A stretch of 64,000 nt of DNA from Hydrogenophaga sp. (GTDB lineage: Bacteria > Pseudomonadota > Gammaproteobacteria > Burkholderiales > Burkholderiaceae_C), in NCBI RefSeq assembly GCF_026125785.1, contig NZ_JAHCKL010000003.1, forward strand, positions 186,001 to 250,000, in the 5' to 3' direction. The position numbers and the translations under genes are program-made. Of the stretch, positions 13,395 to 40,960 are shown piece after piece. The notes under the pieces are model-generated. The model searched no databases. It had not been told where the DNA came from and was given only the letters and a program-made list of their open reading frames with translations. The first letter of the stretch is position 1; the number at the start of each line of letters is the position of its first letter.

Positions 13395-14156
13395 TCAGCC
13401 CAGCGTGCGCGCCAGCGCTTGCGCGGCCAGCGTCAGACGGGGCAGTTGCAGCCGCGCCTGGGCCAGTGTCATGCGGGCCGCGGGGGCTTGCAGGGCCAGC
13501 GCGCAGCGCACTGTGCGTTGGCCAGGGGCGAACACCGGAACCGCCACACACACCAGCCCATCGACAAACTCCTCGGCATCCACCGCGTGCCCATCGCGGC
13601 GGATCACCTGCAGTTCCGCCTCCAGCGCGGCGCGCTCGGTGAGCGTGTTCGCGGTGTAGCGCGGCAACGCCATGCCATCGAGCAGTGTGCGCCGCTGCCG
13701 TGCATTCATCCAGGCCAGGAACAGCTTGCCGCTGGCCGAGCAGTGCATGGGCACGCGGGTGCCCGGGCGCAGTTCCAGGCGCAGCGGAAAGGCCGACTCC
13801 ACCCGATCGAGGTAGACCACGTCCGCGCCCGACAGGGCGGTGAGGTTGCAGCTTTCGCCCACCTCGCTGACCAGTTGGCGCAGCACCGCATGGCGCACCC
13901 CCTGGCGGGCGCTGGTGCTCAGGGCCGCCTCCGACAGGCGCAGCAAGCGAGGTGCCAGCGCGAAATGGCGCCCACCGGGCTCGCGCTGCAGCCAGCCACC
14001 GGTTTCCAGCTGTGCCAGCATGCGGTGTACCGTGGGTTTGGGCCAGCCGGTGAGTGCGACGAGTTCGGGCAGCGCCAGCGCCTTGTCCTGGCGGGTGATC
14101 AGGTCCAGCAACTCCATGAGCCGCAGGCCGGGGCTGCTCTCGGTGTCGGTGTTCAT
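13395..14156 (-). CDS. IclR-family transcriptional regulator
   Basis: A 253-residue regulator. The N-terminal winged helix-turn-helix (about 10-70) contains LALPELVALTGWPKPTVHRML. The C-terminal IclR effector domain (about 80-245) contains MHCSASGKLFLAW and DAEEFVDGLVCVAVPV, typical of the ligand pocket. It is divergent from the SDR-FMO-BASS operon with about 100 bp between starts. The AT-rich intergenic DNA carries paired CGAGA-type repeats. It most likely controls that operon in response to its substrate; activation or repression cannot be told. Confidence 0.88.
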   Translation of the reverse strand: MNTDTESSPGLRLMELLDLITRQDKALALPELVALTGWPKPTVHRMLAQLETGGWLQREPGGRHFALAPRLLRLSEAALSTSARQGVRHAVLRQLVSEVGESCNLTALSGADVVYLDRVESAFPLRLELRPGTRVPMHCSASGKLFLAWMNARQRRTLLDGMALPRYTANTLTERAALEAELQVIRRDGHAVDAEEFVDGLVCVAVPVFAPGQRTVRCALALQAPAARMTLAQARLQLPRLTLAAQALARTLG

Positions 14157-19317: not shown

Positions 19318-21279
19318 TCAGGCGGCGGATGCCAGCGAGAAACGGCTCGCATGCCGCCAGGCCCGGCGCAGCACCGCGGGCGACCACGATTCCTCGGGGA
19401 TCAGCAGCACGCCGCGCGAACGCATCCAGGCGCCCAGTTCCACGTGGCTGGTGGCCACGGTGAGCGGCACGGCCAGCAGCAACGGCAGGGCCACCGGTGC
19501 CAGCCAGATCAGGGCCTGGGCATTGATGGCGGTCACGCCCACCGCGAGCAGGCCGATGACCAGGGTCATGGGCGCCAGGCGGGCGGCGGCATCGCGCCAG
19601 CGCACGCCGGCGGCTTCCCGCGGCGGCGACTTCCAGTCCAGCTGGATGCCGGTGATGGCCACCAGCACGAACAGCGAGTGCGCCAGCATGCGGATGGGCG
19701 CCTGCAGCAGAGCCAGCACGGTCTCCACCGCCGCGCTGCCCAGCAGCGTGCCGGTGCCGCCGAAGTTCTTCTGTTCGCGCCGCAGGAACACCGCCAGCAG
19801 ACCCAGCACGCGGGGCATGAACAGCATGCACAGCGTCCAGGCCCACAGGCCGCGCAGCTCGCTGGGCACCGTGTGCCAGAAGGTCGCCACGCTTTCGTCC
19901 GACATCCACAGCGCGGTACCGAAGCTCAGGAAGGCCAGCCACAGCGGCGCCGAGACATAGGACATGGCGCCAATGGCGAACATGGCCCGGTGCACGCGGT
20001 GGATGCCGGGCTCGGCCATCAGCCGCGAGTTCTGCAGGTTGCCCTGGCACCAGCGGCGGTCGCGCTGCAGTTCGCTCAGCAGGTCGGGGGGCTGCTGCTC
20101 GTAGCTGCCGCTGAGGTCCGAGACCAGCCAGACGTGGTAGCCGGCGCGGCGCATCAATGCGGCTTCCACGAAGTCGTGCGACATGATGCCGCCGGACATG
20201 CCACCCGTGCCCTTGATGGGCGCCAGGGCGCAGTGCTGCATGAAGGGCTCCACGCGGATGATGGCGTTGTGACCCCAGTAGTGCGACTCGCCCAACTGCC
20301 AGAACTGCATGCCCAGCGTGAACAGGCGGCCGGTCACGCGCGAGGCGAATTGCTGGGCGCGGGCGTGCAGCGTGGCGTGGCCGATGGCCTGGGTGGCGGT
20401 CTGGATGATGCCGGCCTTGGGATGGGCCTCCATGAGCTTGACCATGGAGACGATGCACGAGCCGCTCATCACGCTGTCGGCGTCGAGCACCACCATGTAG
20501 CGGTAGTCCTTGCCCCAGCGGCGGCAGAAGTCGGCCACGTTGCCGGCCTTGCGGTGGGTGCGGCGCGTGCGCAGGCGGTAGTACACCTCGATCTGCGGCA
20601 GTTCCGTTTGCGCGGCCAGCGCGGCGCGCAGGTCTTCCCAGGCCCGGCGCTCGGCCCGGGCGATCGCGGGGTCGTAGCTGTCGGAGAGCACGAACACGTC
20701 GAACTGGCGCGCGTGACCGGTGGCCGCCAGCGACTCGCAGGTCGCGCGCAGGCCGGCGAACACGGTGGCCACGTCCTCGTTGCAGATCGGCATGATGATG
20801 GCCGTGCGTGCGTCCGGGTTCATGGGGTTGTCGCGCACGGCGGCGGCCGACAGCGTGTGGGCGTCACCGCGCAGCGAGACCCAGAAGCCCATGAGCGCGG
20901 TCACGAAGCCCGTGACCACCCAGGCCGAAAGCAGGCCGAACAAGGCGAGCTGGCCGTACTGCAGCCAGGTGTTGTGGTGTTCGGGCTGCGCGTCGGCGAA
21001 CAGGCTGGTGGCGAAGGCGGTGCTCAACACCGTGAGCAACGCGAACACCAGCCGGCGGCGGTTGGCCGCGTGCTCCCAGGCCTGCAGGGCGGGCCTGGGT
21101 GTTTCGGTCGGCGCAGCCCAGGGCGGCAGCAGACCGCTGGCCGTGCTCAGCAGCGCGGTGCCGATGCTGTTCCAGAAACCGCGCCACGGGCGGGGCACCA
21201 TGGAGCCGCGGTGGATCGGCGGTGCGGTCACCGAATTCGGATGGCGCTCGGCGCGCACGGTGGTGCGGGCGGTGCTCAT
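19318..21279 (-). CDS. opgH: Glucan biosynthesis glucosyltransferase OpgH (MdoH)
   Basis: A 653-residue inner-membrane glycosyltransferase of family GT2. It polymerises UDP-glucose into beta-1,2 glucan and exports it as osmoregulated periplasmic glucan. LDADSVMSGSC is the DxD region, and LQRDRRWCQGNLQN is the Q(Q/R)xRW processivity motif. Hydrophobic segments lie near 85-140 and in the C-terminal third. I chose the ATG that overlaps the opgG stop (ATGA). An ATG eight codons upstream, at 21303, would overlap opgG by 28 nt and is possible. Confidence 0.95.
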   Translation of the reverse strand: MSTARTTVRAERHPNSVTAPPIHRGSMVPRPWRGFWNSIGTALLSTASGLLPPWAAPTETPRPALQAWEHAANRRRLVFALLTVLSTAFATSLFADAQPEHHNTWLQYGQLALFGLLSAWVVTGFVTALMGFWVSLRGDAHTLSAAAVRDNPMNPDARTAIIMPICNEDVATVFAGLRATCESLAATGHARQFDVFVLSDSYDPAIARAERRAWEDLRAALAAQTELPQIEVYYRLRTRRTHRKAGNVADFCRRWGKDYRYMVVLDADSVMSGSCIVSMVKLMEAHPKAGIIQTATQAIGHATLHARAQQFASRVTGRLFTLGMQFWQLGESHYWGHNAIIRVEPFMQHCALAPIKGTGGMSGGIMSHDFVEAALMRRAGYHVWLVSDLSGSYEQQPPDLLSELQRDRRWCQGNLQNSRLMAEPGIHRVHRAMFAIGAMSYVSAPLWLAFLSFGTALWMSDESVATFWHTVPSELRGLWAWTLCMLFMPRVLGLLAVFLRREQKNFGGTGTLLGSAAVETVLALLQAPIRMLAHSLFVLVAITGIQLDWKSPPREAAGVRWRDAAARLAPMTLVIGLLAVGVTAINAQALIWLAPVALPLLLAVPLTVATSHVELGAWMRSRGVLLIPEESWSPAVLRRAWRHASRFSLASAA

Positions 21280-22847
21280 TCGGGTAGCAGCAGATGTGTC
21301 CATGTTTCGCTCACGGTGTCGTTGAGGTGTTGCAGAAAGGCGCGCAGCTCGACCGGTTGGGCCGGATCGATGCGTTCCACGCGCAGGCTCACGCGCCAGG
21401 TGCGCGTGGCGGGGTTGGGGTAGGCCAGTGCTTCGAGCACGCGGCCATTGGTGTTGGTGGTGACCACGGCACGCACCTGCGCACCGGCGGGCAGGGCGTC
21501 CAGTGCCGGGCCGGCGAAGTCCAGCACGTACTGCGGCTGGCGCGCCTGCTCGGCCGGCGTGAGGCGGGTGAAGCCGTAGCCACGCCGGCTTTGCGTGACC
21601 CAGCTCGACGGCGGGCGCTGTTGGTCGTCGCCTTGCCAGGCCATCTCATAGGCGAACTCCATGGCCTGGCCCGGCGCGGGCAGGGCGGCGGGGACCCAGT
21701 AGGCCACCACGTTGTCGTGCGTCTCGTCCGGCGTGGGCAACTGCACCAGTTCCACGCGGCCATCGCCCCAGTCGCCCAGTGGCTTGATCCAGGCGCTGGG
21801 TCGGCGTTCGTAGCGGGCCTCCACGTCCTCGTAGCTGGCGAAGCTGCGGTCGCGCTGCATCAGGCCGAAGCCGCGCGGGTTGCGCATGCCGAAGGAGCTC
21901 ACCGTCACCGCCTGGGGGCGCTGCAGCGGACGCCACAGCCATTCGCCCTCGCCGTTGACCATCATCAGGCCGTCGGAGTCGTGCACCTCGGGGCGGAAGT
22001 CGCCCGGCATCGGTTGGTTCTCACCCGAGAGGAACATGCTGGTGAGCGGCGCGATGCCCAGGGTGTTCACCGGGCCGGCACCGGCGCGCAGAAAGACGCG
22101 CGCGGTCACGGTGGTCAGCGTCTGGCGGCCAGGGCGGATCACGAAGCGGTAGGCGCCGGTGGCGCGTGGCGACTCCAGCAGGGCCAGCACGGTGACCTCG
22201 GTGGCGTTGGCGGCCGGGCGCTGGATCCAGAACTCGGTGAAGCGCGGGAACTCCTCGCCGGTGCCGCCCACGGTGTCGATGGCCAGGCCGCGCGCCGACA
22301 GGCCGTACTGCTGACCGGCACCGAGCGCGCGGAAGTAGCTCGCGCCCTGGAAGACCACCAACTCGTCCTTGTAGGCGGTGCTGTTGAGCGGGAAATGCAG
22401 GCGGAAGCCGGCGTGGCCGAGATCGCCCCAGGGGCGGGGGTCGAAGGAGTTCTGCCCGTAGTCGAAGTCGCTGGTCCGGTAGGGCACGTGGCGCACGGTG
22501 CCGTCGGCCAGCAGCTCGTGGATGCGCACCGGCTCGGTCTGGTACAGCCCGAGGTGAAAGAACTGGGCTTCGAAGGGCAGGCCCTCGGCCCGCCAGAGCG
22601 AGCGCTCGGGACGGAAACGGATGTCGCGCAGCTGGTCGTAGGTGATGTTGGCCAGCTCGGGCGGCAGCTTGTCGCCGTTTGCCTGAAACGGCTGGCGCGC
22701 GCGTGTCTGCGCCAGCTCGCTCAGGCTGTTCCAGTCGAAGCGCGGCGTTTGCGCCGACGCCCCGGCCAGCGTGGCCAGCAGCACACCCAGCACGGTCCAG
22801 GCGCGCAGACGGCGCAGGCTGGAGAAAGGGGTGAAAAGCGAGGACAT
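21276..22847 (-). CDS. opgG: Periplasmic glucan biosynthesis protein OpgG (MdoG)
   Basis: A 523-residue exported protein. A signal peptide ending in LAGASA precedes the MdoG domain. Long stretches match E. coli OpgG, for example GASYFRALGAGQQYGLSARG, PRFTEFWIQRP and SPRATGAYRFV. It acts on the glucan backbone in the periplasm and is required with OpgH. AGGAAGG lies 4-5 nt before the ATG. A sigma-54 promoter match sits immediately upstream, with two GlrR-type sites further out. The neighbouring glrR gene is transcribed in the same direction. Confidence 0.95.
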   Translation of the reverse strand: MSSLFTPFSSLRRLRAWTVLGVLLATLAGASAQTPRFDWNSLSELAQTRARQPFQANGDKLPPELANITYDQLRDIRFRPERSLWRAEGLPFEAQFFHLGLYQTEPVRIHELLADGTVRHVPYRTSDFDYGQNSFDPRPWGDLGHAGFRLHFPLNSTAYKDELVVFQGASYFRALGAGQQYGLSARGLAIDTVGGTGEEFPRFTEFWIQRPAANATEVTVLALLESPRATGAYRFVIRPGRQTLTTVTARVFLRAGAGPVNTLGIAPLTSMFLSGENQPMPGDFRPEVHDSDGLMMVNGEGEWLWRPLQRPQAVTVSSFGMRNPRGFGLMQRDRSFASYEDVEARYERRPSAWIKPLGDWGDGRVELVQLPTPDETHDNVVAYWVPAALPAPGQAMEFAYEMAWQGDDQQRPPSSWVTQSRRGYGFTRLTPAEQARQPQYVLDFAGPALDALPAGAQVRAVVTTNTNGRVLEALAYPNPATRTWRVSLRVERIDPAQPVELRAFLQHLNDTVSETWTHLLLPE

Positions 22848-22859
22848 GCCCTTCCTAGG

Positions 22860-22874
22860 GCAAACCCTGTGCCA
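22860..22874 (-). promoter_or_regulatory. Sigma-54 promoter match upstream of opgG
   Basis: On the minus strand TGGCAC-AGGGT-TTGC fits the -24/-12 consensus TGGCAC-N5-TTGC exactly. The expected transcript start, about 12 nt downstream (about 22848), falls at the opgG ATG (22847). The mRNA would then be leaderless and would lack the AGGAAGG site. Either the start codon is used leaderless, or a second promoter makes the leader. Confidence 0.6.
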
Positions 22875-22969
22875 GCCTGGAAAAATCCTTTCAGATCAAT
22901 GGCTTATGCTTGAAAATCCATGTCCAGTCGCGGCCATCGCCGCCACAGAGGCCTCTCAGCCCTGTTTTT

Positions 22970-22987
22970 TGTCGCCGATCAGCGACA
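22970..22987. promoter_or_regulatory. GlrR-type activator site 1
   Basis: TGTCGCCGATCAGCGACA is an exact TGTC-N10-GACA, the binding motif described for E. coli GlrR at glmY. Its centre lies about 130 bp upstream of the predicted sigma-54 start of opgG. Confidence 0.65.
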
Positions 22988-23036
22988 GCTCACTTGGCGT
23001 CTGGAGAAAACTCCAGGAAAAACAAGGCCTTGTGCG

Positions 23037-23054
23037 TGTCACTCATCGGCGACA
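23037..23054. promoter_or_regulatory. GlrR-type activator site 2, overlapping the glrR stop
   Basis: TGTCACTCATCGGCGACA is a second exact TGTC-N10-GACA. Its centre is 67 bp from site 1 and about 197 bp from the predicted opgG start. It includes the last codons and stop of glrR. A perfect CTGGAG-AAAA-CTCCAG hairpin (23001-23016) lies between the two sites. Confidence 0.6.
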
Positions 23055-24475
23055 GGGTCCACGCCGACCCCATTCCCACCGGCCGGGGCGTCGCTCTTGA
23101 ACAGGCCGGGCGTGAGCGCATGCTTCTGCAGCAGCCGGTAGAACTCGGTGCGGTTGCGCTGCGCCAGCCGGGCCGCATCCGCCACGTTGCCGTCGGTCAT
23201 CTTCAGCAGGCCGACCAGGTACTCGCGTTCGAAGCGCTGCTTGGCGTCCGCAAAGCTCAGCACCTCCACCGAAGAAGGCACGCGCAGCGCGCGTTGCACC
23301 AGCGCCAGCGAGACCAGCGGCGTGGTGGACAGGGCACACACCTGCTCGACCACGTTGTAGAGCTGGCGCACGTTGCCTGGCCAGGGCGCCATGGTCAGTG
23401 CCTTGAGCGCCTCGGGCGCGAAACCCGAACTGCGCTTGCCGTACTTGGCCGCCAGCCGCGCCAGGAAGTGGTTGGCGAGCAGAGCGATGTCCTCGCGGCG
23501 CTCCGCCAGGGTGGGCAGGGTGAGCGTCACCACGTTGAGGCGGTAGTACAGGTCCTCGCGGAACTGACCTTCGGCCATCGCGGCTTCCAGGTCGCGGTGG
23601 GTGGCGGAGATGATGCGCACGTCCACCGGCAACGACAGGCTCGACCCCAGTGGGCGCACCGCGCGTTCCTGCAGCACGCGCAGCAGCTTCACCTGCAGCG
23701 CGGGCGGCATGTCGCCGATCTCGTCGAGCAGCAGCGTGCCACCGTCGGCGGTCTGGAACAGGCCCTTGTGGTTGCTCACCGCGTCGGTGAACGCGCCCTT
23801 GACGTGCCCGAACAGCTCGGACTCCAGCAGCGCCTCGGGAATGGCGCCGCAGTTCACCGCCACGAAAGGCTTGTTGGCCCGCGCGCTGGCCTTGTGGATG
23901 GCGCGCGCCAGCATCTCCTTGCCGGTACCCGAGTCGCCGCGCAGCAGCACGCTGGCATCGGACTGCGCCACCATGCGCGCTTCGGCCAGCAGATCCGCCA
24001 TGCGGTTGGAGCGGCTCACGATCTCGCTGCGCCAGGCCTCGTCGATATGAGGGCTGTCGCCGGCCGGCGCGCTCAGGGCCAGTGCCTGCGCGATCTTCTC
24101 CAGCAGTTCCTTGGCGTCGTAGGGCTTGGTGAGGTAGGTGAACACGCCGCGCGCGGTGGCCTCCACCGCATCCGGAATGGTGCCGTGCGCGGTGAGCAAA
24201 ATCACCGGCAGCGAAGGGTGCCGCGCCCGGATCTCGTCGAACAGGGCCAGGCCGTCGCGCCCGGGCAGGCGCACGTCCGAGAGCACGAGCTGCGGCCGCT
24301 GGATGTCCAACTGCGCCAGCGCCGCTTCGGCGGAGCCGACCGAGGTGACCTGGTAGCCGGCGGAGCCCAGGCGCATGGCCAGCAGGCGCAGCATGTCGGC
24401 GTCGTCGTCGACCACCAGCAGCCGCGCGCGCGGCGCACCGGCGACGGGCGAGGTGGACGAGACGGCGGCGTTCAT
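23039..24475 (-). CDS. glrR: Sigma-54 response regulator GlrR (QseF)
   Basis: A 478-residue activator with three parts. The receiver domain has D67 in LVLSDVRLPG. The AAA+ domain has Walker A GDSGTGKE and TLLLDEIGDMP. The C-terminal Fis-type helix contains ADAARLAQRNRTEFYRLLQ. Sequence blocks such as VSNHKGLFQTADGG and NRTEFY, plus the glrK-qseG-glrR order, match E. coli QseF/GlrR rather than other NtrC-family proteins. The sigma-54 contact loop reads GAFTDA instead of GAFTGA. The start overlaps the qseG stop by 4 nt. Two matching DNA sites lie directly downstream, in front of opgG. Confidence 0.9.
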   Translation of the reverse strand: MNAAVSSTSPVAGAPRARLLVVDDDADMLRLLAMRLGSAGYQVTSVGSAEAALAQLDIQRPQLVLSDVRLPGRDGLALFDEIRARHPSLPVILLTAHGTIPDAVEATARGVFTYLTKPYDAKELLEKIAQALALSAPAGDSPHIDEAWRSEIVSRSNRMADLLAEARMVAQSDASVLLRGDSGTGKEMLARAIHKASARANKPFVAVNCGAIPEALLESELFGHVKGAFTDAVSNHKGLFQTADGGTLLLDEIGDMPPALQVKLLRVLQERAVRPLGSSLSLPVDVRIISATHRDLEAAMAEGQFREDLYYRLNVVTLTLPTLAERREDIALLANHFLARLAAKYGKRSSGFAPEALKALTMAPWPGNVRQLYNVVEQVCALSTTPLVSLALVQRALRVPSSVEVLSFADAKQRFEREYLVGLLKMTDGNVADAARLAQRNRTEFYRLLQKHALTPGLFKSDAPAGGNGVGVDPVADE

Positions 24476-25215
24476 GGCGCCGGCCGGCCGGCGCCCGGCG
24501 CGGATGCGGGGGGAACCGGCGCCGCGCTGGGCCGTGAGTTGATGCTGCGCTCGATGGCGCGCATGGCTTCCAGGCGGTCGTTGAGCTGGTCGATGCGGCG
24601 CTGGCTGTCGCGCAACTGCTGCGTCTGGCGGTCCACCACCTCTTCCAGCCGGCGTTGCTCCAGCAGCCGCGCGGCCAGCAGGCGGGCCAGGGGCTTGAAG
24701 GGCACGCTCTCAGGGCCGGTGTGGTTGACCACGCGCTGCACCAGGCCCAGGGCCTTGGCGGTGTCCACCGCCTGGTGCGTGTGGATCAGGGCCAGCGCCA
24801 ACTGCATCTGGCGCAGCGGCGCGTTGCCCGGGTCGCCCTGCAGCACGATCTCGGCCGTGAGCTCCGCGGGGCTGAGCACGCGCAGGCGCTCGGCATAGGT
24901 CAGCAGCGCGGTCACCAGGTCCGGAACCGCCGGTGCCTCCGCATCCAGCACCATGGGCGACGGCGCCTGCGTGCTCTGCACCGGCATCACCAGCAAGGGC
25001 GGTGCCGCGGTATCGGCGGCCTGCGCCGTCACGATGTTGGTGGGCGGGCCCGCGGGTTCGGGCACGCTGGGCGCGGCCGGAACCGAGCCGCACGCGGCCA
25101 GGCCGATGGCCAGCGCGGCCAGCAGGCCGGCGCCGGCGGCGCGAGGTGCCGCCAGGGGCGTTGGTGCGGTGGCGGGGCCGCAGGGCGCGCTCGCCACGAA
25201 GGGGTTGTTCAACAT
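24472..25215 (-). CDS. qseG: QseG-like outer-membrane lipoprotein
   Basis: A 247-residue predicted lipoprotein with a lipobox, IGLAACGS, at Cys42 after an unusually long N-region. The middle of the protein is helical (LTYAERLRVLSPAEL). A C-terminal coiled coil follows (EEVVDRQTQQLRDSQRRIDQL) and then a Pro/Ala tail. Overall similarity to E. coli QseG is weak. Its position between the kinase and the regulator, its lipobox and the coiled coil support the call. In E. coli QseG contacts the periplasmic part of the kinase and activates it. Confidence 0.72.
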   Translation of the reverse strand: MLNNPFVASAPCGPATAPTPLAAPRAAGAGLLAALAIGLAACGSVPAAPSVPEPAGPPTNIVTAQAADTAAPPLLVMPVQSTQAPSPMVLDAEAPAVPDLVTALLTYAERLRVLSPAELTAEIVLQGDPGNAPLRQMQLALALIHTHQAVDTAKALGLVQRVVNHTGPESVPFKPLARLLAARLLEQRRLEEVVDRQTQQLRDSQRRIDQLNDRLEAMRAIERSINSRPSAAPVPPASAPGAGRPAP

Positions 25216-26621
25216 GGAAGTTCGATCCGGAAGTGGGCGCCCTGGCGCTGCGCCAGCAGCTCGATGCGTCCCCCGTGGGCCACAATGTACTCGTGCACGA
25301 TGGACAGGCCGATGCCGGTGCCGCGCGCGGCACCCTCGGGCTGGCGCTCGCCGCGGTAGAAGGGCTCGAAAATGCGGTCGCGGTCCGCCTCCGCCACGCC
25401 GGGGCCCTGGTCGATGATGTCCAGGCAGGCGCGCCCGGGCAGTTCCAGCAGCACCAGGCGGATCAGTCCGCCTCGCGGTGAATAGCGGATCGCGTTGGAG
25501 AGCAGGTTGCCCACGGCCGAGGCGATCTTCTCCCGGTCCAGCGGCAGCGTCACCGCCACCCCCTCGGCCCGCACCTGCAGGCCCTGGGCCTGCCACTGCA
25601 GGCGCTGGGTGTCGATCTGGTCTTCCACCAGCGCCATCAGGTCGGTGCGCTCGCGCCTGAGCTGGCGCGCCTCGAAGGCGGCGGCGTTGAAGCGCAGCAG
25701 CGCCTCGATCTGGTGCTGCAGCAGCTGCGTGTTGTGCCGCAGGATGTGCACCACCTCGGCCTGGCTGGGCGTCAGGGCGCCGGCCACGCCATCGCCCAGC
25801 ACCGCCACGCCTTCGTGCATCGACGCCAGCGGTGTCTTGAGCTCGTGCGACACGTGCCGCAGGAAGCGGGCCTTGTCGGCGTCGAGCTCGGTCAGGCGCA
25901 GGCGAAGCCAATCCAGTTGCTGGCTCACGCGCCGCACGTCGGATGGGCCGGGAATGTCGATCGGCAGGTCCAGCCGGTTTTCGCCCAGGCCCTGGATGGC
26001 CTTTTCCAGCCGCTTGAACGGCCGCGCCAGCCAGATGCCGAAGGCCAGCGCCAGGATCGCGGCCACGCCGATCGAACCCACGACCTGCTGCGCGAGCTCC
26101 TGCCGGCTGGTCTCGAAGCGGGCCTGCAACGCGTCGTTGCGGCTGGCGATGATGGACTGCACCTTCTGCGCGATCGAGGCACTGTGGCCGTCGATCTCGC
26201 GGAACACGCGGGCCACCTCGCGCTCGCGGTCCAGCGCTGTCTCGGACGGGCCATCGAGCAGATCGGTGATGACGTCCAGACGCTCGCGCCAGTTGGTTGC
26301 GTACTCGGGTGGCAACTCGTTGTCTTCCAGACGCCGCAAAATGTCGCGCGCGTTGCCGGCCGCTTCATTGAACCGCTGGCGCAGCTGGTTGTCGCGCAGC
26401 ACCAGCGACTGGCGCGCCGCGCGCTCCATGGTCAGGCTGCGCTCGGAGAGCGACTGCGCCGCGGTGGACAGCGCGATCGCCTGCGCCGCGCTCTCGCGGC
26501 TCTGCGCCATCAGCGTCTCCAGCGAGAACAGCGCGCGCAGCGCGGCCGCGCCCAGCAGGGCGCCGATCAGCAGGAACGCGACCAGCAGCAACTGCTGGAA
26601 GGAAAAGCGCGAAGGCTTCAC
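25209..26621 (-). CDS. glrK: Sensor histidine kinase GlrK (QseE)
   Basis: A 470-residue kinase. TM1 lies at about 8-33, a helical periplasmic domain at 34-180, TM2 at 181-199, then HAMP, a dimerisation domain with H259 in [19 protein letters not shown], and a HATPase with [13 protein letters not shown]. The GTG start overlaps the miaB stop (GTGA). An upstream frame would run inside miaB. It should phosphorylate GlrR in response to envelope stress, with QseG as partner. In E. coli this system drives glmY and rpoE. No glmY-like RNA is visible here. Confidence 0.88.
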
Positions 26622-27961
26622 GCGGACTCGCGCACCAGCACCTCGGCACGCAGCGAATGCGGCAGGGCTTCGGTGATGCGCACGTCGATCATCTCGCCGA
26701 CCAGCCGCGCGGCCTGCGGGCCACCGTCGAAGTTGACGATGCGGTTGCACTCGGTGCGGCCCATGAGCTCGGCCGCGTTGCGCCGCGACGGGCCCTCGAC
26801 CAGGATGCGCTGCACCGTGCCTGCACGGCTGGCGCTGATGCGGCGCACGTTGTCCTCGATGGTGGCCTGCAGGTGCTGCAGGCGCTTGAGCTTGACCTCG
26901 TGCGGCGTGTCGTCGGGCAGGTTGGCCGCTGGCGTGCCTGGGCGCGGGCTGAAGATGAAACTGAAGCTGGCGTCGAAGCCGATGTCGGTGATCAGCTTCA
27001 TCATCTTCTGGAAGTCGTCCTCGGTCTCACCGGGGAAACCGACGATGAAGTCGCTGCTCATGGCCATGTCCGGCCGGATGGCACGCAGCTTGCGGACGGT
27101 GCTCTTGTACTCCATGGCGGTGTAGCCGCGCTTCATCGCCATCAGGATGCGGTCGCTGCCGTGCTGCACCGGCAGGTGCAGGTGGTTCACCAGCTTCGGC
27201 ACCCGGCCATAGGCCTCGATCAGGCGCGGCGTGAATTCATTGGGGTGGCTGGTGGTGTAGCGGATGCGCTCGATGCCGGGAATGTCCGCCACGTACTCAA
27301 GCAGCAGCGCGAAATCGGCGATCTCGGCGGTGCCTCCCATCGCGCCGCGGTAGGCGTTGACGTTCTGCCCAAGCAGGGTCACTTCCTTCACGCCCTGGTC
27401 GGCCAGCCCGGCCACTTCCACCAGCACGTCGTCGAAGGGGCGGCTGACCTCTTCACCTCGCGTGTAGGGCACCACGCAGTAGCTGCAGTACTTGGAGCAG
27501 CCCTCCATGATGCTGACGAAGGCGCTCGCGCCTTCGACGCGGGCCGGCGGCAGGTGGTCGAACTTCTCGATTTCAGGGAAGCTGATGTCCACCTGGGGCT
27601 GGTCCTGGCGCGTGCGCTGGTTCAACAGCTCGGGCAGGCGGTGCAGGGTCTGCGGGCCGAACACCACGTCCACATACGGCGCGCGCTTGATGATCTCGGC
27701 CCCTTCCTGGCTGGCCACGCAGCCCCCCACGCCGATCAGCACCCCCTTCTTCTTGAGGTGCTTGACGCGGCCCAGGTCGGAAAACACCTTCTCCTGGGCC
27801 TTCTCGCGCACCGAGCAGGTGTTGAAGAGGATCAGGTCGGCCTCCTCCACGTCCTGCGTGGGTTCGTAGCCCTGGGCGGCGCCCAGCACGTCGGCCATCT
27901 TGTCCGAGTCGTACTCGTTCATCTGGCAGCCAAAAGTTTTGATGAAGACTTTGCGGGTCAT
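26618..27961 (-). CDS. miaB: tRNA-2-methylthio-N6-dimethylallyladenosine synthase MiaB
   Basis: A 447-residue radical-SAM methylthiotransferase that modifies A37 of tRNAs reading UNN codons. The N-terminal UPF0004 domain holds the auxiliary cluster cysteines ([39 protein letters not shown]). CSKYCSYC is the radical-SAM CxxxCxxC. A TRAM domain ends the protein. ATG 27961 ([13 protein letters not shown]) is the usual start; ATG 27973 in the same frame is possible. It shares translational coupling with glrK downstream. Confidence 0.95.
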
Positions 27962-40718: not shown

Positions 40719-40960
40719 TATACTGCGCGCGTTGTACAACTAAAGTACAACCGAGATTGGCATCTCGAAGACGATCGTTCGACCAAATGGCGGCAATGCT
40801 CGGTGTTGCGGCTATTGTTATCGGTCCCCTTTTGGTGGCCCGGATGGGGAGCCGTATGGCTCGCCGGTCCTGAGCGATCGTCCCGGTATGCCAACCCGTC
40901 TGGGCCACCGCCACCTTCGCCGGGTGCCGGTGGCGTCGTGTCATCGACTGGGAGGTATCC
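40719..40960 (+). promoter_or_regulatory. Promoter and long structured leader of the NYN gene
   Basis: TATACT (40719-40724) is a good -10. GTTGTACAAC (40731-40740, a perfect palindrome) with GTACAAC (40745-40751) overlaps the expected start. The following 220 nt contain a row of stems: CGAGAT-TGGC-ATCTCG (40752-40767); a long arm 40834-40848 paired with 40895-40909 and enclosing GAGCC-GTAT-GGCTC (40849-40862); and CGCCACC/GGTGGCG (40909-40915 with 40929-40935). A GGGAGG site precedes the ATG. No known riboswitch class is recognised. Confidence 0.55.

Follow-up and report, generated by a model that had tools for sequence, protein, structure and literature searches.

The window analysed here, a stretch of 64,000 nucleotides from Hydrogenophaga sp., carries on its minus strand a gene cluster in the order glrK, a qseG-like gene, glrR, opgG and opgH (Table 1). 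GlrR is an envelope-stress regulator, and the products of opgGH make protective periplasmic sugars (periplasmic glucans). A cognate glrR is present in the same genome, its product having GlrR (NF011695) as the best NCBIfam match, at 609.6 bits and under the equivalog cut-off of 763, and sharing 58% identity with E. coli GlrR in an alignment of 444 columns. A glrK-like gene was found upstream of glrR in the fetched loci that extend far enough, and the place of the qseG-like gene agrees with the qseEGF order described in the available portion of PMC12691602; a longer ORF in the same frame (24472-25911) had no match in Pfam or NCBIfam.

Table 1. Genes and putative promoter elements of the glrR-opgG region of the window, and loci with a small ORF at the promoter.
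Feature	Coordinates or loci	Strand	Remarks
glrK/qseE-like sensor histidine kinase gene	25209..26750	-	Pfam HisKA and HATPase_c; listed GTG start, uncertain
qseG-like lipoprotein gene	24472..25215	-	between glrK and glrR; ORF and lipobox (LAAC) by eye
glrR, sigma-54 activator (response regulator, AAA+)	23039..24475	-	Pfam Response_reg and Sigma54_activat
UAS1, TGTCGCCGATGAGTGACA	23037..23054	-	exact TGTC-N10-GACA
IHF-like site 1, CAAGGCCTTGTTT	23020..23032	-	1 mismatch to YAANNNNTTGATW
UAS2, TGTCGCTGATCGGCGACA	22970..22987	-	exact TGTC-N10-GACA
IHF-like site 2, TAAGCCATTGATC	22894..22906	-	1 mismatch to YAANNNNTTGATW
sigma-54 promoter -24/-12, TGGCACAGGGTTTGC	22860..22874	-	TGGCAC-N5-TTGC pattern
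Predicted transcription start	22847..22848	-	at the A of the opgG ATG or 1 nt before it; glmY spacing as ruler
opgG (mdoG)	21276..22847	-	PF04349, E 7.5e-192
opgH (mdoH)	19318..21303	-	overlaps the end of opgG; NF003960, 1163.9 bits (cut-off 829)
66-70-aa ORF at the promoter position of glrR-opgH loci (19)	L038-L042, L044, L046-L054, L060, L065, L073, L077		L202 is the locus of genome G513

Two palindromes and a -24/-12 element at a working distance from them precede opgG; glrR ends at 23039, so that UAS1 overlaps its stop codon. The initial annotation had placed both palindromes and the -24/-12 element exactly, and its distances of 130 and 197 bp upstream are right when taken as centre distances to a start at 22848; its list of sites was incomplete in that two IHF-like sites, each 1 mismatch away from the IHF consensus YAANNNNTTGATW, had been overlooked. 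Directly after UAS2 on the minus strand is a run of A (22965-22969), which also occurs in most of the places displayed from the motif-only scan described below and is possibly an extension of UAS2 or a DNA bend. Taken as motifs in one sequence, these elements are weak evidence, and conservation is decisive. The window has 3 matches to TGTC-N10-GACA where 0.67 would be expected, a count attained in 3 of 100 shuffles, and across the genome exact palindromes are barely enriched (43, versus 32 for the reversed pattern), no other two of the 43 lying within 100 bp of each other. The -24/-12 pattern, with 8 matches at no more than 1 mismatch, 3 of them exact, against 8.7 expected, is not enriched in the window. 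The other exact TGGCAC-N5-TTGC matches lie at 13943-13957 (minus strand) and 27079-27093 (plus strand), with no exact TGTC-N10-GACA near either. Since enrichment in a single sequence is slight or absent, a comparative test was required.

We fetched 110 loci from relatives and this genome, 80 via GlrR and 30 via OpgG. The analysed set comprised the 88 in which glrR is followed by opgG (62) or opgH (26), with the window counted once (duplicate L001 dropped); the other 22, which lack a glrR-opg pair, were kept outside (L028-L030, L090, L091, L093-L102 and L104-L110). The 88 include near-duplicates between the two collections, 13 of which a filter at 85% identity removes, so that 75 remain. Both UAS and the -24/-12 element are all kept, with at most 1 mismatch each, in 84 of the 88 loci. 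At that threshold UAS1 and UAS2 are each found in 86, and the -24/-12 element has no mismatch in 73 and a single one in 14. UAS1 and UAS2 are 67 bp apart in 72 loci and 65 bp in 8, and UAS2 lies 110-113 bp from -24 in 80. Palindrome pairs 64-69 bp apart, neither member with more than 1 mismatch, are found in 81 of the 88 spacers and in none of the 88 glrR interiors, and shuffled spacers yield them in a mean of 0.01 of 88, with a maximum of 1, over 100 rounds. The position of UAS1 slides relative to the glrR stop, from -45 to +32 (85/88), while its distance to UAS2 is nearly fixed. In an alignment of the 75 spacers, the conserved islands are UAS1, AAG..TTGAT, UAS2, a second TTGAT, the -24/-12 element and CATG, with little conservation between them; the palindromes conform to TGTC-N10-GACA with a variable centre. 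Both TTGAT islands fit the IHF consensus. IHF-like site 1 is present with at most 1 mismatch in 68 of the 88 loci, always 21-22 bp past the start of UAS1, and site 2 in 83, in 82 of them 30-32 bp before -24, whereas the reversed IHF pattern is found at site 1 in a single locus and at site 2 in none.

Two further samples were drawn independently of gene order. A scan of 299 genomes of the family for the motifs alone (one palindrome followed by a -24/-12 element) was positive in 36, at a single place in each, and the reversed pattern gave 0; a GlrR relative is present in all 36. Among the 30 places that were read, 15 face opgG, 13 opgH and 2 another gene, and glrR adjoins 28. In the second sample, selected by GlrR from 200 family genomes, 53 genomes had matches with E no greater than 1e-150, at 55 places in all. 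Of the 54 places outside this genome, all of which were read, 43 lead to opgG (22) or opgH (21), the site set being complete in 36 of them. The remaining 7 comprise 2 without the arrangement, 4 in which UAS1 is lost by our criterion and 1 with a promoter at 2 mismatches. Of the 11 places that do not lead to opg genes, 7 carry the site set.

A natural break in synteny occurs in genus g270, in which glrR lies beside opgG in genome G651, 49 kb away in G562 and on another contig in G720. In both G562 and G720, opgG retains two palindromes 68 bp apart, the CAAGTCGTTGAT element and TGGCACA-N4-TTGC upstream, and the site set was not found downstream of the G562 glrR (L214). Because opgG keeps the module away from glrR in these genomes, the putative promoter module is one that goes with opgG and not with the end of glrR. 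The proposal of the initial annotation, direct GlrR/sigma-54 control of opgGH in a regulon devoid of glmY, is supported by this retention at unlinked opgG genes and by conservation of the palindromes and the -24/-12 element with glrR-opg synteny, which it had named as a check, both in the 88 loci and in the GlrR-chosen sample. We regard opgGH as a well-supported predicted new target of GlrR.

The closest known counterpart of the arrangement is the promoter of glmY. Counted from the 5' end annotated in the E. coli record, the UAS of E. coli K-12 glmY begin at -230, -197 and -134, its IHF-like sites lie at -177 and -58, and TGGCACAGTTACTGC is at -27. The glmY promoter measures 63 bp from UAS to UAS, 20 bp from UAS to IHF1, 107 bp from UAS to -24 and 31 bp from IHF2 to -24, against 67, 22, 113 and 32 bp in the window; with the first UAS of glmY left aside, all its elements, both IHF-like sites included, are spaced within 1 to 6 bp of those of opgG. 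The 12 nt from the -12 C to the annotated +1 of glmY equal the 12 nt from the -12 C to the opgG ATG. The two systems differ in that glmY has three UAS and the opgG promoter of the window two, IHF2 has the opposite orientation, and glmY precedes glrK whereas opgG follows glrR; the glmY promoter yields an sRNA, and that of the window would yield a protein-coding mRNA with AUG at the place of +1. According to the accessible text of PMC6075780, QseF acts at glmY with the help of IHF, and excerpts of PMC8745638 describe TGTCN10GACA, three putative QseF sites and two IHF sites in Proteus mirabilis. In line with the initial annotation, which saw no glmY, glmY itself was not found: RF00128 had no match in the genome (93.8% complete), with the E. 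coli control detected. A glmY-like RNA at the promoter was likewise discarded, none scoring above the gathering threshold in the window, where the opgG ORF is found instead.

The homologous opgGH (mdoGH) genes of E. coli are in the same order as in the window, yet the approximately 394 bp upstream of E. coli opgG contain no palindrome at up to 1 mismatch and no -24/-12 element at up to 3, only one palindrome-like stretch (2 mismatches) and one IHF-like site. A table in the available part of PMC10100675 lists RpoE for opgG and, in a separate row, GlrR among the regulators of rpoE; a link between GlrR and opgG in E. coli would thus be indirect, via RpoE. That paper is the sole one with both terms among the literature matches listed, mostly non-subscription, none of which proposes direct control of opgG by GlrR/QseF. 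QseF-like activators are listed in PMC3162934, in the available main text of which glucan and opg do not appear, and PMC12316311 contains no mention of opgG, mdoG, glucan, GlrR, QseF or Comamonad.

The ATG lies 12 nt after the -12 C in the window and 11-13 nt after it in 59 of the 62 opgG loci (11 nt in 8, 12 nt in 47, 13 nt in 4), and within this interval the middle bases are barely conserved and the first three and last three moderately so. From the -12 spacing and with glmY as a ruler, the AUG is predicted to be at the transcription start, as the initial annotation had also placed it. The leaderless mRNA that would follow had been regarded there as a tension, a concern that falls away with the AUG at this position in so many loci. 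Shine-Dalgarno sequences are not enriched at these starts, a match of at least 4 nt preceding 16 of 82 starts at the promoter position, versus 28% of random coding windows; among other genes of the same loci, too few for a comparison, opgH has one in 5 of 9 cases and glrR in 1 of 7. In the 36 complete loci of the GlrR-chosen sample, the start position opens an opg gene in 22, the 66-70-aa ORF of Table 1 in 3 and an unrelated short ORF (21-32 aa) in another 3; 8 have no ATG at 10-15 nt (L203, L206-L209, L212, L217 and L221). In view of these 8 loci and the 3 with an unrelated ORF, a leaderless start would be a property of most of these loci, not a universal one. The start can lie farther off when another gene faces the sites, as in L125 (36 nt) and L131 (68 nt).

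The alternative that survives best accepts the GlrR/sigma-54 promoter as real and holds that opgG is mainly translated from longer mRNAs, arising by read-through from glrR or from an unseen sigma-70 start, or from a downstream start codon, and is not leaderless. It draws on the purine-rich AGGAAGGG that precedes the ATG in the window, with which a transcript from further upstream could be translated in the ordinary way, on another in-frame start codon before the hydrophobic core of the signal peptide in 17 of 59 loci, and on the 8 complete loci in which no ATG is suitably placed. We nonetheless consider this alternative unlikely, given the narrow AUG spacing and the lack of Shine-Dalgarno enrichment, the 42 of 59 loci with no alternative start before the core, the absence of a sigma-70-like promoter from 22700-23300 in a simple consensus scan, and the fact that the same position opens a different ORF, or opgH, in other genera.

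These other genera make up most of the 26 glrR-opgH loci. In 19 of them, from Variovorax, Xenophilus, Pseudacidovorax and their kin, position 12 opens an ORF of 66-70 aa (Table 1), many copies of which carry CVFKRFPAIGDTP; the likely ATG of opgH then follows 218-230 nt after the promoter, in most loci in a frame other than that of the small ORF. In 4 loci, three of them from Pseudorhodoferax and one with a Variovorax label, opgH itself begins with this ATG, which there lies at 14 nt, and in the remaining 3 neither the small ORF nor opgH is found at the start position. The pattern of variation shows coding constraint on this putative gene: pN/pS is 0.53 (170 pairs, which are not independent), the frequencies of non-consensus bases at codon positions 1, 2 and 3 are 0.14, 0.12 and 0.25, a bias matched by none of 5,000 column shuffles, and amino-acid conservation is 0.79, versus 0.69 (sd 0.014) in shuffles. 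No Pfam family scored above the cut-off for the one member scanned, and no NCBIfam family was found for nine members; the conserved ORF is apparently undescribed. With E 0.001 as the limit, a search of the 299 family genomes returned 10 matches, of which 7, with E <1e-13, are clear. In G513, glrR and both palindromes precede the small ORF, and the approximately 2.2 kb read beyond it gave no match to opgH or opgG. Variovorax-type genomes have not lost opgG altogether, for an OpgG/OpgD-like protein (39-47% identity) was found in each of the 18 searched; opgG is therefore missing at this locus only.

Beyond the family, the paired-site pattern was detected in 24 of 399 genomes of the order, and the reversed pattern never. 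Of 27 places, 24 were read. In 16 of these, glrR ends within 90 bp of the pair, and 14 of the 16 have a downstream -24/-12 element with no more than 1 mismatch. The pair leads to opgG or opgH in 4 of the 16 loci and to a different ORF in the others. The 8 pairs without adjacent glrR (L116-L118, L120, L124 and L126-L128) may be targets in other families that are not linked to glrR. GlrR-type sites and a -24/-12-like element also follow glrR in betaproteobacteria, Thiobacillus-like and others (L099, L102, L104 and L107), where the next gene on the same strand encodes EF-hand and BON domains. Further palindromes were noted 378-466 bp past the glrR stop in L102, L104, L105, L107 and L110. Across this order, GlrR facing its following gene thus looks widespread, opgGH being the form that it takes in Comamonadaceae, and the arrangement may be ancestral.

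The same survey bears on a second alternative, in which the sites serve another activator or the autoregulation of glrR and stand before opgG only incidentally. The variety of genes that paired sites face behind glrR in other families, and the pairs that have no glrR beside them, would suit it. We judge it very improbable, because every motif-positive genome of the family has a GlrR relative, the UAS of E. coli glmY have the same pattern, and the sites follow opgG rather than glrR in G562 and stand at opgG away from glrR in G720. A third reading, in which the palindromes would act in RNA, as hairpins or as a terminator separating glrR from opgG, rather than as protein sites, is scarcely credible and was rejected: the sites are near-inverted copies of each other and pair in the predicted RNA (z = -4.2), but no terminator-like site was found in 22700-23300, the run after UAS2 is of A and not T in the direction of transcription, the motif has a variable centre, and opgG keeps the module even with glrR elsewhere.

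We thus favour with considerable confidence a reading in which a GlrR-activated, IHF-assisted sigma-54 promoter would drive opgGH as a leaderless mRNA. Its mechanism is modelled on what the available parts of PMC6075780 and PMC8745638 report for enteric GlrR and on sigma-54 activation in general; binding of GlrR and IHF, the requirement for sigma-54, the exact 5' end and the mode of translation are all predicted by analogy. Signalling through GlrK/QseG would phosphorylate GlrR, which would then occupy both palindromes, approximately 130 and 197 bp upstream. IHF would bend the DNA in the two gaps, between UAS1 and UAS2 and between UAS2 and the promoter, letting GlrR remodel sigma-54 RNA polymerase at TGGCACAGGGTTTGC. 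Transcription of opgG would begin at, or within approximately 1 nt of, the A of the AUG, and ribosomes would load without a Shine-Dalgarno sequence. Leaderless starts have a precedent in Sinorhizobium meliloti, for which the accessible text of PMC3616915 reports 171 mapped cases, with AUG at the 5' end as predicted here; in that text no sigma-54 activator is linked to a leaderless start, whereas the spacing described here is conserved across genera and belongs to a single module.

More broadly, we are inclined to see in these loci an ancestral GlrR-IHF-sigma-54 module whose output has been swapped, being an sRNA in E. coli and the next coding gene in Burkholderiales, often with AUG at +1 (in much of Comamonadaceae) and with the small ORF in that place in Variovorax, Xenophilus and Pseudacidovorax. 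If so, a sigma-54 activator would make leaderless mRNAs in much of Comamonadaceae, and the loci form a natural series in which the activator and promoter are kept while an sRNA gives way to an mRNA as the product. The literature that we found says little about what GlrK-QseG-GlrR does outside enteric bacteria; in many Comamonadaceae the system would be tied directly to periplasmic glucan synthesis, to which it would be connected in E. coli only through RpoE. A leaderless mRNA under sigma-54 control is a testable prediction that raises the question of how such messages are translated in envelope stress, and the small ORF of Variovorax is a candidate new small protein.

One other place in the genome drew attention as a potential GlrR target: between uppP and a membrane-protein gene (L147:1587-1629, genome G000, contig C34), a perfect TGTCGC-N6-GCGACA stands 10 bp before TGGCATCACGCTTGC, which has the form TGGCAT-N5-TTGC. 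It was set aside, approximately 0.5 perfect extended palindromes being expected by chance (an estimate from base composition) and 10 bp looking too short for an enhancer; at 2 mismatches the extended palindrome is not enriched (424, versus 720 for the reversed pattern). Elsewhere in the window, a C4 antisense RNA (RF01695), a phage-type regulatory RNA, scores above the gathering threshold at 40828-40915, which suggests a prophage region.
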